A stretch of DNA of 10,924 nt. Source: Candidatus Undinarchaeales archaeon SRR5007147.bin71 (GTDB lineage Archaea > Undinarchaeota > Undinarchaeia > Undinarchaeales > Undinarchaeaceae). This document shows positions 1,541-9,816 of this stretch, in pieces. The stretch spans positions 1-10,924 of the forward strand of contig DVAE01000029.1 in the NCBI GenBank assembly GCA_014189675.1, in the 5' to 3' direction. The notes below the pieces were generated by a model. It had not been told where the DNA came from. It was given only the letters and a program-made list of their open reading frames with translations, and ran no database searches. Both the position numbers and the translations under genes were made by a program. Within the stretch, counting starts at the first letter, position 1, and each line of letters starts with the position of its first letter.

Positions 1541-1603
1541 TGTCTCAGACCGCCCATCATTCATCATCTGGTATCAGATCGATGTCGGATCTTCATCGAC
1601 TAC
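1541..1603 (-). ncRNA. Predicted box C/D guide sRNA (rRNA 2'-O-methylation guide)
   Basis: On the minus strand the intergenic stretch has the full C/D layout in order. There is a C box TCGATGA (1593-1599; the last five bases canonical, the first two not), a 15-base guide (1578-1592), and a D' box CTGA (1574-1577). Next come a 6-base spacer, a perfect C' box ATGATGA (1561-1567), a 12-base guide (1549-1560) and a D box CTGA (1545-1548). From C to D it is 55 bases, the normal archaeal size. The D guide ATGATGGGCGGT pairs with universally conserved 16S rRNA ACCGCCCGUCA (11 pairs, one G-U), placing methylation on C1402 (E. coli numbering) by the fifth-base rule. The D' guide pairs 10 bases with 23S UCGAUGUCGG, pointing to A2503. 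A TATA box is centred 27 bases before base 1600. Nop5 and fibrillarin, which would bind it, are encoded in the same window. rRNA sequences are recalled, not searched. Confidence 0.82.
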
Positions 1604-1622: not shown

Positions 1623-1631
1623 CTTATAAAG
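1623..1631. promoter_or_regulatory. Shared divergent TATA element for the C/D sRNA (minus) and small lipoprotein (plus)
   Basis: CTTATAAAG is nearly palindromic and reads as a TATA box either way. Toward the minus strand, a start about 27 bases on falls at about 1600, exactly at the edge of the C box of the predicted sRNA. Toward the plus strand the start would fall near 1654, giving the lipoprotein gene (ATG 1673) a leader of about 20 bases without an evident Shine-Dalgarno. Confidence 0.55.
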
Positions 1632-2055: not shown

Positions 2056-2979
2056 ATGATTAGAGCTTCTGCACCGGGAAAATTAATTTTGTTCGGCGAC
2101 CATGCTGTGGTCTATGGAGAGCCTGGAATAGCCACTGCGATAAACAAGAGGGTTTACTCGACCGCATGCGAACTAGAGGGCCGAAAAATTATTATTGAGT
2201 CCAAAGACACTGGTGAGACCATAGAGTGTGGTATCAGAGATAAGTCCAAGAATCTAATAGTTGCCGCTGTCCAGGAGGCGCAAAAATTCGCAAAGAGTAG
2301 GTCAGGTGTAGGAGTTGAAATAAATTCACAAATTCCAATAGGTGCTGGACTCGGTTCATCTGCGGCCGTGGCAACTGCAACAATTGCCTCTGTGGCAACA
2401 CTTTTTAATGGAAAAGAGCCGTCAACTATGGAGATTGCGGAAATGGCTTACAAAGCGGACAAACTGGCTCACAAAACACCCAGTGGTATAGATACTGCCA
2501 TAACAAGTCTTGGTGGAACTATATTTTTCAAAAAAGGAAATATAAGCCAACTCGATTCCGAGCCACTTACTTTAGTTGTTGCAAACAGCGGCGTCAAGAG
2601 AAATACTAGTGACATGGTTTTGAGGGTCAAAAATAGTATAATGGATCCAAGAGTTGCCCTAAGTATGTTCAGCATAGGTTCCTTGACAAAGGAGGCGCGC
2701 ACTGTTCTTATAAATAAGCGTCCAGGAGATCTCGGTCCTCTGATGGACCGTGGACAGTCTCTTCTGAAGGATCTTGGAGTTAGCTCAACAGCTATTGAGG
2801 ATCTCGTTCGAATTGCAAAGGATTCAGGGGCAATTGGCTCAAAAATAACTGGTGCCGGGGGCGGAGGATGTATTATTTCACTATCAGAGGATCCAGAAGA
2901 CCTAATCAAAGCTTTCAGAGAGACTGGAGCTTCCGCATATTCTGTAAGGACAAATCAGCCTGGTGTTAGAATTGACTGA
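2056..2979 (+). CDS. mvk: Mevalonate kinase
   Basis: A 307-residue GHMP kinase that converts mevalonate and ATP to 5-phosphomevalonate, the first kinase step of the mevalonate pathway. The three family motifs are all present. The N-terminal one is SAPGKLILFGDHAVVYG (residues 5-21), the ATP phosphate loop is PIGAGLGSSAAVA (94-106), and the C-terminal one is KITGAGGGG (263-271). The catalytic aspartate is Asp146 in TPSGIDTAITSLGG. Length is typical of archaeal enzymes. One small departure is GDH where most family members have GEH (Asp15 for Glu), a conservative change near the substrate site. It is the first gene of the isoprenoid operon and its 3' end overlaps the next gene (isopentenyl phosphate kinase), which supports pathway membership and separates it from galactokinase or homoserine kinase. 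Confidence 0.93.
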   Translation: MIRASAPGKLILFGDHAVVYGEPGIATAINKRVYSTACELEGRKIIIESKDTGETIECGIRDKSKNLIVAAVQEAQKFAKSRSGVGVEINSQIPIGAGLGSSAAVATATIASVATLFNGKEPSTMEIAEMAYKADKLAHKTPSGIDTAITSLGGTIFFKKGNISQLDSEPLTLVVANSGVKRNTSDMVLRVKNSIMDPRVALSMFSIGSLTKEARTVLINKRPGDLGPLMDRGQSLLKDLGVSSTAIEDLVRIAKDSGAIGSKITGAGGGGCIISLSEDPEDLIKAFRETGASAYSVRTNQPGVRID

Positions 2980-3778
2980 AGATATCAAAGAAACAGTATT
3001 CGTCAAGCTCGGAGGATCTGCAATAACACATAAGGGAAAAGAATCCCAGGCAAATCTTCCTGTTATAGATTTATCCTCTTCTCAGATTTCAGAACTTTAC
3101 ACTAATTTCAAGCTGATTCTTGCTCATGGGGGTGGAGGCTTTGCGCATCCTGTTGCAGAGAGGCATAATGTGAATAAGGGAATAGAGAAATGCAAGCCAC
3201 TTGGTCTTTCTAATACAAGAAGGGCCATACAGGATTTAAATTCAATAGTTCTCACTTCCCTTCATTCAAAAGAAGTTCCGGCTCTTACAATTTCTCCTTC
3301 CGCTTGTTCAGAAATGGAAAATGGAAGATTCATAGATTTTAATCTTTCCCCAGTTCATCATGCACACAAACTAGGGGCAGTTCCTCTTCTTCATGGGGAT
3401 GTTGTGTATGATTCTGTTAAAGGGTGCTCAGTTGCATCTACGGAAATGATTTTTTCATATCTCTCTACGAGAATTAAACCGAAGCGTATAGTCATCGGAG
3501 CCAATGTAGACGGAGTTTTCTGGGACAATCCTGACAATGGAAAGCGAGAGCTTGTTGAGGAAATAAACAGCAGAAATCTTGAGGATGTCCTGTCTGCGGT
3601 CGAAGAACCAAAAACTAGTGATGTCACAGGCGGAATGAGGCACAAAATAGAGGAGCTCTACAATATTAGCAAGCATAAGATAGAAATATTCATAGTTAAT
3701 CTCAGCAAGAAAAACTACTTAAGGGGAGCCATACTCGGAAAACCAGAAGTAGGAACTAGAATAAAAGCGGGGGAATAG
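2963..3778 (+). CDS. ipk: Isopentenyl phosphate kinase
   Basis: A protein of about 270 residues from the amino-acid-kinase fold that phosphorylates isopentenyl phosphate to isopentenyl diphosphate with ATP, the final step of the archaeal variant of the mevalonate pathway. Visible marks are KLGGSAIT (15-22), HGGGGFAHP (55-63) with the substrate-binding histidine at 62, LHGDVV (143-148), GANVDGVF (179-186) and SDVTGGM (219-225). The usual S-G-D-D-I motif reads STEMI (159-163), so a glutamate stands where the phosphate-organising aspartate is expected. The start is GTG at 2963, overlapping mevalonate kinase by 17 bases; an in-frame TTG at 2972 would give a shorter overlap and is a fair alternative, as the conserved core begins only near residue 12. 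Overlap with mevalonate kinase and proximity to IPP isomerase make the pathway role secure. Confidence 0.9.
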   Translation: MLELTEDIKETVFVKLGGSAITHKGKESQANLPVIDLSSSQISELYTNFKLILAHGGGGFAHPVAERHNVNKGIEKCKPLGLSNTRRAIQDLNSIVLTSLHSKEVPALTISPSACSEMENGRFIDFNLSPVHHAHKLGAVPLLHGDVVYDSVKGCSVASTEMIFSYLSTRIKPKRIVIGANVDGVFWDNPDNGKRELVEEINSRNLEDVLSAVEEPKTSDVTGGMRHKIEELYNISKHKIEIFIVNLSKKNYLRGAILGKPEVGTRIKAGE

Positions 3779-3804
3779 GATCGTTAGTTTCGGTCAATTA
3801 GTAT

Positions 3805-4845
3805 ATGAGCACATCTGAGAGGAAACTCGACCATATCAAAATTGTTTCGAATGAGAGAGTCGAGGCAAGAGAAAAGACAACTCTTCTTGAGGAAGTTGAG
3901 TTTATTCACAATTCTCTACCTGATTTTGACAGAGACTCTGTGGATACTAGTACAGAGATTTTCGGAAAGAAATTAAAAATTCCTTTTTTAATAAGTGGAA
4001 TGACAGGGGGGCATCCTAATGCTGAGAAGCTGAATCTGGCCCTTGCAGAAGCTGCAGAGGCAGCAGGTCTTGCCTTTGGACTTGGCTCGCAGAGAGCAAT
4101 GCTGGAAGATAAGTCACTTTCGCAAACTTACAAAGTAAGATCTGTGGCTCCAAACACTCTTATTTTCGGAAACATTGGAATTCCTCAAATATCAGATTAT
4201 TCTCCTTCAGATATCTCGTCAATGCTTGATGATGTCGGAGCCGATGCCCTTGCAGTTCATCTAAATCCTCTCCAAGAATCTATTCAGCCTGAAGGTGATG
4301 TTGACATGGAAGGACTCGCCGGTTCACTGAAAGATCTCATTAAATCCCTGGGATTTCCTGTTCTAGCTAAGGAAACTGGAGCGGGAATATCAAAGGATGT
4401 TGCGAAAATTCTGATTGACTGCGGAGTTTCCGCTATCGATACTGGCGGAGCCGGAGGAACATCCTTCGCTGCTGTTGAGCTTTTCAGAAAAGAGGATTCT
4501 GAGCTCTCCGAGTTCTGGGACTGGGGAATTCCAACTGCCGCAAGCATTCTTGAGATAAGAGATTCCTCAAAAGAAATCCTGATTATAGCAACAGGTGGTA
4601 TAAGAACCGGTCTGGATGCTGCCCAGGCTCTTGCTCTAGGGGCAAATGCTGTCGGAATGGCCGGTCCCATGATAAAAGCAGCAGCAAAGGGAAGCTCTGA
4701 AGTTCTTATTGAAATCGAAAAGGTCCAGAAAAGCCTCAGAACTGCAATGTTTCTCTGCGGAGCATCCAAGGTTTCCGAAATTGGTCGTGATAAGGTAGTT
4801 CTAAATGGAGCTCTAAGAAGTTGGCAGAAGCAAAGGGGTCTCTAA
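3805..4845 (+). CDS. fni: Type 2 isopentenyl-diphosphate isomerase (FMN-dependent)
   Basis: A 346-residue TIM-barrel flavoenzyme that interconverts isopentenyl and dimethylallyl diphosphate using reduced FMN and Mg2+. Family motifs appear in order. RKLDHI is at residues 6-11, SGMTGGH at 64-70 and FGLGSQRAML at 91-100. VHLNPLQESIQPEGD (151-165) carries the catalytic Gln and Mg-binding Glu; GGAGGTS is at 214-220 and WGIPTAASI at 240-248. The phosphate-binding ATGGIRTGLDAAQALALGA spans 262-280. It follows isopentenyl phosphate kinase after 26 bases and precedes the prenyltransferase by one base, so it acts on the product of its neighbour and supplies the allylic starter for chain elongation. No Shine-Dalgarno or convincing TATA box is seen in the 26-base gap. 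Length and all key residues look normal. Confidence 0.95.
   Translation: MSTSERKLDHIKIVSNERVEAREKTTLLEEVEFIHNSLPDFDRDSVDTSTEIFGKKLKIPFLISGMTGGHPNAEKLNLALAEAAEAAGLAFGLGSQRAMLEDKSLSQTYKVRSVAPNTLIFGNIGIPQISDYSPSDISSMLDDVGADALAVHLNPLQESIQPEGDVDMEGLAGSLKDLIKSLGFPVLAKETGAGISKDVAKILIDCGVSAIDTGGAGGTSFAAVELFRKEDSELSEFWDWGIPTAASILEIRDSSKEILIIATGGIRTGLDAAQALALGANAVGMAGPMIKAAAKGSSEVLIEIEKVQKSLRTAMFLCGASKVSEIGRDKVVLNGALRSWQKQRGL
4834..4838 (+). promoter_or_regulatory. Shine-Dalgarno sequence for the prenyltransferase gene
   Basis: AGGGG inside the last codons of the isomerase gene, 8 bases before the ATG at 4847, supports that start and translation from within the operon mRNA. Confidence 0.5.
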
Positions 4846-8200: not shown

Positions 8201-9166
8201 ATGTCAAAGCAGATAGTAGTCACTCCCTTTGGTATTTATTCCTCTGAAGGAGGTAAACTTAGTCTGGAGTCTGAGTTTTCAGCCAGTCCTGCTGAGGCTG
8301 CGAAAAAGCTGAGGGAATATGAAAAAACAGAAACTTTGCCTGAATTAGACTCCCTTCTTGAGTCTGGTGCCGAATTTTCAGCAGACAGCGAGGCTTCAAT
8401 AGACGCCAGATTGCGTCTCGATGAGCTAGCAAAGGAGCGCGGAATTGAGGCAAAGAAGTATATTCATGCTCTTAATCAGGAGCTTACAAAACTGAGGATG
8501 CACGAAGAGCTGTCTTCTCCTGACAGAAGAATTATACAGGCTGTCAACTCTCTTGAAGAGATGGACCCTCTTGTAAATGTTCTCTCTGAGAGACTCAGGG
8601 AATGGTCTTCACTGTATTCTCCGGAGCTAAGCCGTTCTGTCCAGAAGCACGATGATTTTCTTATAAAACTTTCCCAGCAAAAGGAAGTATCAAGCGAACT
8701 CGGAGCAGTTTTCGAAAGAGCTGACACTGAAGTTCCTAAAGATATAGCTCATTCCCTTTCAGACATGTATGAAACAAGAACAAAGCTTCGGGAATATCTT
8801 GAAAAAATGATGAAGGAACACTATCCAAACCTCGAAGCTGTCGCTGGAAGTCACATTGGGGCTCAGCTTATGGCTCTCGCCGGAGGTGCCAAGCGCCTGG
8901 CAACAAAGCCTTCGAGCACAGTCCAGGTTCTTGGAGCTGAGAAGGCACTATTCAGGCACGTCACAACTGGGGCAAAGCCTCCAAAATATGGAGTTCTTCT
9001 CCACCATCCTGTGATAAAGGACCTTCCTAAACACCTTCGGGGGAAGGGAGCTCGGATTCTTGCAGGAAAAATATCTCTTGCAATAAGGGCGGATTTCTAT
9101 GGCTCAGGGTTTTCAGCTGACAAACTCAATGAAAGTCTGGACAAGAGGATAAAAAACCTAAAATGA
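8201..9166 (+). CDS. nop5: Nop5 (Nop56/58-type) core protein of the box C/D RNP
   Basis: A 321-residue scaffold protein that binds L7Ae on box C/D RNA, dimerises by a coiled coil and holds fibrillarin for 2'-O-methylation of rRNA. The N-terminal third (1-100) is the fibrillarin-binding region. Charged helices from about 145 to 205 fit the coiled coil. The Nop domain (about 205-305) has AGSHIGAQLMALAGGAKRLA (215-234), then PSSTVQVLGAEKALFRH (237-253) and GAKPPKYGV (257-265), followed by RGKGARILAGK. It is shorter than many archaeal Nop5 proteins, which commonly carry a longer lysine-rich tail; here the protein ends soon after the Nop domain. The last four bases (ATGA) overlap the fibrillarin start, the classic archaeal pair. 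Confidence 0.95.
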   Translation: MSKQIVVTPFGIYSSEGGKLSLESEFSASPAEAAKKLREYEKTETLPELDSLLESGAEFSADSEASIDARLRLDELAKERGIEAKKYIHALNQELTKLRMHEELSSPDRRIIQAVNSLEEMDPLVNVLSERLREWSSLYSPELSRSVQKHDDFLIKLSQQKEVSSELGAVFERADTEVPKDIAHSLSDMYETRTKLREYLEKMMKEHYPNLEAVAGSHIGAQLMALAGGAKRLATKPSSTVQVLGAEKALFRHVTTGAKPPKYGVLLHHPVIKDLPKHLRGKGARILAGKISLAIRADFYGSGFSADKLNESLDKRIKNLK

Positions 9167-9816
9167 AACTTCTAAAAAAACTCGGAAAAGAGTATGCAAC
9201 TCTTAGCTTAGTTTCGGGCAGAAAGGTCTACGGAGAGCGTCTGAAAAAGATAGACGGAAAAGAATACAGATTCTGGGATTCTTACAGGTCAAAACTTTCA
9301 GCAGCTCTTACTCTTGGTCTCAAGAATATGCACTTTGAAGAGGATTCAAATGTTCTCTATCTTGGAGCCGCAAACGGAACAACTGCCAGTCACATCTCTG
9401 ACTTGGTTCCACGGGGAACAGTGTATTGTGTTGAGTTTTCCCCAAGAGCAATGGCAGACCTCTACCCACTCTGCAAAAAGAGGAAGAATATGGTTCCTAT
9501 ACTCGCTGATGCAAATCAGCCAATCCAGTACGCTCACCGCATCGGCCAAGTCGATATAGTTTACCAGGATGTTGCACAGCGCCACCAGGCTGACATTCTT
9601 ATCAAGAATGCAAAAATGTTCCTCAAGCCACGCGGCTGGACATATCTTATGGTAAAGGCTCGTAGTATAGACGTTTCTGAAAACCCAAATAAGTTATTTA
9701 ACATTCTCACAAATCAGCTTAGGTCAACATTCGACACGGAGGAAAAACTTAAGCTCGATCCCTACGAAAAAGACCATATGTGCATAGTTTCGAGGCTGAG
9801 AAAAACAATACGATGA
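9163..9816 (+). CDS. flpA: Fibrillarin, rRNA 2'-O-methyltransferase
   Basis: A 217-residue SAM-dependent methyltransferase, the catalytic subunit of the C/D RNP. The SAM-binding loop is YLGAANGTTASHISD (66-80), followed by VYCVEFSPR (87-95) and ILADANQP (113-120). The catalytic K-D-K-H set is visible as Lys44 in RSKL, Asp136 in DVAQ, Lys165 in KARSID and His205 in PYEKDH. As usual for archaea there is no Gly/Arg-rich N-terminal region. It overlaps nop5 by ATGA at its start and the COG1395-type regulator by ATGA at its end, implying translational coupling of all three. It would act with the predicted sRNA at 1541-1603. Confidence 0.96.
   Translation: MKLLKKLGKEYATLSLVSGRKVYGERLKKIDGKEYRFWDSYRSKLSAALTLGLKNMHFEEDSNVLYLGAANGTTASHISDLVPRGTVYCVEFSPRAMADLYPLCKKRKNMVPILADANQPIQYAHRIGQVDIVYQDVAQRHQADILIKNAKMFLKPRGWTYLMVKARSIDVSENPNKLFNILTNQLRSTFDTEEKLKLDPYEKDHMCIVSRLRKTIR

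Follow-up and report, generated by a model that had tools for sequence, protein, structure and literature searches.

The window, a 10,924-nt stretch of DNA from the marine Undinarchaeales MAG SRR5007147.bin71 (0.62 Mb in 39 contigs, PMC7414124 Table 1; 623,718 bases in 39 contigs as G000 in our collection), contains a GHMP kinase gene (stop at 1530) and a small lipoprotein-like gene (start at 1673) in the same orientation, with a 59-nt element located between them and antisense to both. On the minus strand from 1600 to 1542 the element reads GTC-G-ATGAAGA-TCCGACATCGAT-CTGA-TACCAG-ATGATGA-ATGATGGGCGGT-CTGA-GAC, in which the boxes C, D', C' and D follow the order of an archaeal box C/D sRNA with one change in C, and two guides of 12 nt each end at boxes D' and D (Table 1). 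The genes for the scaffold protein Nop5 and the methyltransferase fibrillarin overlap, in an apparent operon, within the same window, and an L7Ae-family protein is encoded outside it (G000:C32:51683-51955), giving all three proteins in the source genome. Three consecutive genes at 2056-4845, for a GHMP kinase, another kinase-like protein and what is probably an isopentenyl diphosphate isomerase, suggest a mevalonate-pathway gene cluster.

Table 1 Features of the sRNA locus, of the partner protein genes in the window and of a second sRNA in the source genome
Feature	Position	Strand	Remarks
Box C/D sRNA core with terminal stem	1542..1600	-	59 nt; boxes read in the sequence, identity in congeners, orthologues in two other families
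Terminal stem I, 5' arm GUC	1598..1600	-	pairs with GAC 1544-1542
C box ATGAAGA	1590..1596	-	register as in orthologues, Rfam sR2 alignment and second sRNA of the lineage
D' guide TCCGACATCGAT, 12 nt	1578..1589	-	predicted target 23S, N+5 = A2503 (E. coli numbering)
D' box CTGA	1574..1577	-	sequence
D'-C' linker TACCAG, 6 nt	1568..1573	-	sequence; length variable among orthologues
C' box ATGATGA	1561..1567	-	sequence
D guide ATGATGGGCGGT, 12 nt	1549..1560	-	predicted target 16S, N+5 = C1402 (E. coli numbering)
D box CTGA	1545..1548	-	sequence
Terminal stem I, 3' arm GAC	1542..1544	-	complement of 1600-1598
TATA box TTTATAAG	1623..1630	-	26 bases upstream of the C box; putative promoter element
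Nop5, C/D sRNP scaffold protein	8201..9166	+	Pfam Nop PF01798, E 2.9e-46
Fibrillarin, 2'-O-methyltransferase	9163..9816	+	Pfam PF01269, E 3.4e-80
Second box C/D sRNA	G000:C32:30104-30166	-	C box ATGAAGA

The original prediction had read the C box of this element as TCGATGA (1599-1593). This motif is present, but its use as a C box would give a 15-nt D' guide and lack the standard bulge. The orthologues align instead to ATGAAGA (1596-1590), which begins three bases downstream and agrees with RUGAUGA in all but one of the seven positions. The ATGAAGA register keeps both sheared G-A pairs, leaves a 3-nt bulge G-A-U (1597-1595), sets a GUC/GAC stem (1600-1598/1544-1542) directly against box D and gives each guide a length of 12 nt; with the tandem G-A pairs of GAAGA/CUGA, the bulge GAU and the stem GUC/GAC, the sequence is consistent with a k-turn. 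In G004, a genome of another family in the same order, the orthologue has the stem UGUCG/CGACA, the C box ATGAAGT and a 12-nt D' guide, and in G005, from a third family, it has the stem AUGCC/GGCAU, the C box ATGATGT and again a 12-nt D' guide, so that the terminal stem is compensated in both. The sub-threshold alignment to Rfam sR2 also pairs GUGAUGA with AUGAAGA of the element, and the second C/D sRNA of the source genome shares the C box ATGAAGA. Because the orthologues, the sR2 alignment and the second sRNA agree, the functional C box, as judged from these comparisons, is ATGAAGA and not TCGATGA. The other elements stood as first described, namely the D' and D boxes CTGA, the C' box ATGATGA, the 6-nt D'-C' spacer and the 12-nt D guide, whereas the D' guide of 15 nt is shortened to 12 nt; an upstream TTTATAA was also found at the place indicated.

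Comparison with close relatives, in which boxes and guides had been expected to persist while the flanks drift, gave this pattern. The 59-nt core is identical in both congeners (59/59), against 117/156 and 99/156 identical third codon positions in the adjacent kinase gene (63-75%). The promoter region holding the TATA box (1601-1640) is likewise kept (40/40 and 38/40), and TTTATA-type boxes occur at a similar distance in G004 and G005. In the congener G001, unrelated inserted DNA separates the lipoprotein gene from the sRNA promoter and the sRNA is unchanged, indicating that the conserved unit consists of promoter and sRNA. Moreover, the G005 orthologue is located on contig C15 and the GHMP kinase of G005 on contig C9, and the sRNA is therefore not tied to the kinase neighbourhood. 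These arrangements bear on the idea, prompted by the antisense position between two co-oriented genes, that the element acts on the GHMP kinase or lipoprotein genes, as a regulatory or antisense RNA or as a transcript k-turn bound by L7Ae; given the separation in G005, the unchanged sRNA beside the G001 insertion and the match of the guides to rRNA, we regard this as very improbable. The inserted DNA of G001 comprises about 200 extra bases after the position matching 1650 of the window and possibly contains a small reading frame.

G004 and G005, representing two other families, retain both guides, and the D' guide core CCGACATCGA persists there although linkers and C boxes have diverged. A scan of the genome collection for both guides together returned three contigs, from the two congeners (UBA55 and ARS1358 MAGs) and G004, and neither guide pattern was found in G003 (same order, 98% complete). 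In the G005 orthologue, box D is CAGA instead of CTGA and the C1402 guide is kept. The boxes are short and individually common, and chance assembly of such motifs in an AT-rich gap might be considered; however, one copy of the strict C-D'-C'-D pattern is present in the window, against none in 400 Markov-simulated windows, and a much looser box pattern has an expectation of 0.01 per window. The search pattern was composed with the element already in view, and conservation and guide matches are therefore stronger evidence than the simulation. Identity in the congeners and retention across families refute chance assembly, which we consider negligible, in line with the earlier judgement that a coincidence was very unlikely. 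The single-strand folding energy of the element was unexceptional (z -1.1), although C/D sRNAs by themselves form little stable secondary structure.

The 16S rRNA of the source genome breaks off before the 3' domain and C1402, and a 23S rRNA is absent from the assembly; guide targets were thus searched in the 16S and 23S rRNAs of G001, with pairing demanded at guide positions 2-11. Each guide found a single site in the two rRNAs: the D guide at 16S 1333, with nine Watson-Crick pairs and one G-U, and the D' guide at 23S 2582, with ten Watson-Crick pairs. A 10-bp duplex is reportedly the working guide-target length, as put forward by Yang et al. in 2016 (cited in PMC7089733). The fifth nucleotide from the box, which selects the target according to the rule stated in PMC7089733 and PMC4644070, is C for the D guide and A for the D' guide, and alignment to E. 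coli rrnB (rrsB 16S and rrlB 23S) identified these nucleotides as 16S C1402 and 23S A2503, respectively. Both N+5 targets thus lie at unique sites of the congener rRNA, and the claim of a match to universally conserved rRNA is more precisely put as one to these two positions. A random 12-mer would pass the same test in the G001 rRNAs with P ~0.004 (all Watson-Crick) or 0.025 (at most one G-U). Pairing of the D' core is also seen at the corresponding site in the 23S rRNAs of G002 and G005.

The C1402 guide is not confined to this lineage. A pattern of this guide plus D box, TGATGGGCGNNCTGA, was matched in 137 of 394 archaeal genomes, compared to five matches of the reversed control pattern, and several of the matches score at gathering level as sR1, sR2 or sR3 in Rfam. 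The guide occurs at D or D' in other archaea with different partner guides, consistent with the published reshuffling of guides among C/D sRNAs (PMC4644070). The element itself reached the gathering score of no Rfam family; the four best matches below that score are all to archaeal C/D sRNAs and cover the same span, and for sR2 (RF01139) it scored 24.7 bits against a gathering score of 42. The element resembles sR2, sR1 (RF01152) and sR3 (RF01133) in the C/D'/C'/D layout, and shares with their members in other archaea the guide TGATGGGCG to 16S C1402. It differs from them in its partner guide, its score below their gathering levels and its C box ATGAAGA, and sR1 and sR3 members carry the C1402 guide at D' whereas the element has it at D. 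Two other DNA matches, L018 and L028, lying towards the C end of the query, were judged by inspection not to be C/D sRNAs and were left out, and a pattern match in the source genome (G000:C21, L087) shows no C box in the sequence inspected and looks coding. In some archaeal genomes (G117, G228 and G023), two C1402-type guides lie about 100-200 bases apart, suggesting tandem duplication.

The boxes, the guide complementarity, the conservation and the three protein genes are directly observed. With unique rRNA matches at guide positions 2-11, conservation in relatives and Nop5, fibrillarin and L7Ae in the genome, the element is, as originally predicted, almost certainly a box C/D guide RNA gene of the minus strand, with two rRNA guides and a presumed role in methylation once transcribed. 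It is a previously unlabelled member of a well-known RNA class, not a new class, and adds an unannotated RNA to the small genomes of an archaeal lineage that has received little study. A TATA promoter of its own would drive minus-strand transcription of the sRNA, whose C/D ends would form a k-turn and whose C'/D' middle a k-loop, and L7Ae may bind both and recruit Nop5 and fibrillarin. In the assembled RNP, the D guide would pair with 16S rRNA and place C1402, in the P-site/decoding region, for 2'-O-methylation, and the D' guide would pair with 23S rRNA and place A2503, in the peptidyl transferase centre at the tunnel entrance, for the same modification.

2'-O-methylation of 16S C1402 is documented for E. 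coli, P. abyssi (Cm1369), yeast and human (PMC11542601). The D guide suggests that the lineage has kept guided methylation at this nucleotide, a modification common to all three domains. At the equivalent position, Arabidopsis At1gCDbox192 (18S Cm1645) also guides a fibrillarin C/D RNP (PMC11542601), but the eukaryotic C1402-equivalent snoRNAs are not compact archaeal dual guides with 12-nt guides, and the likeness noted here is one of target. For A2503, no report of 2'-O-methylation in archaea was found in the main texts of the open-access papers examined. Bacteria modify 23S A2503 on the base (RlmN, Cfr). We propose tentatively, as a possible rather than a probable reading, that undinarchaeal ribosomes carry an RNA-guided 2'-O-methyl group at 23S A2503, coupled by one sRNA to the 16S C1402 mark, in a lineage whose C box has shifted to ATGAAG[A/T]. 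Alternatively, only the D guide may work, the D' match to A2503 being incidental or an rRNA chaperone contact without methylation, as might be argued from C1402 being a known methylation site, from the literature search for A2503 and from the wide distribution of the D guide in other archaea with varying D' guides. We consider this unlikely, given the retention of CCGACATCGA in G004 and G005 despite diverged linkers and C boxes, the ten Watson-Crick pairs formed in G001 and the pairing of the core with the 23S of G005 itself. The proposed A2503 target is a specific prediction open to testing, and this guide and the C box ATGAAG[A/T] are the least expected parts of the finding. The column of E. 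coli 23S A2503 is usually A; the 23S of G003 and of G024 have C there, and G003 is also without the A2503 guide pattern, which could reflect real co-loss or an assembly matter.

The second C/D sRNA of the source genome carries a D' guide, AGTGAACACCCT, that pairs with 23S rRNA at positions 2-11 and places U2552 of the A loop at N+5; for its D region of 14 bases, no clear target in rRNA is apparent. It is conserved in G001, G002, G003 and G005, where the C box is ATGAAGA (G001, G002 and G003) or ATGAAGT (G005). ATGAAG[A/T] is the lineage-typical C box, which strict RUGAUGA searches would miss, a practical lesson for annotation. P. abyssi sR25 is a predicted guide for U2552 (PMC2584109), a site it has in common with the second sRNA and not with the window element; the likeness noted here is in the target site.
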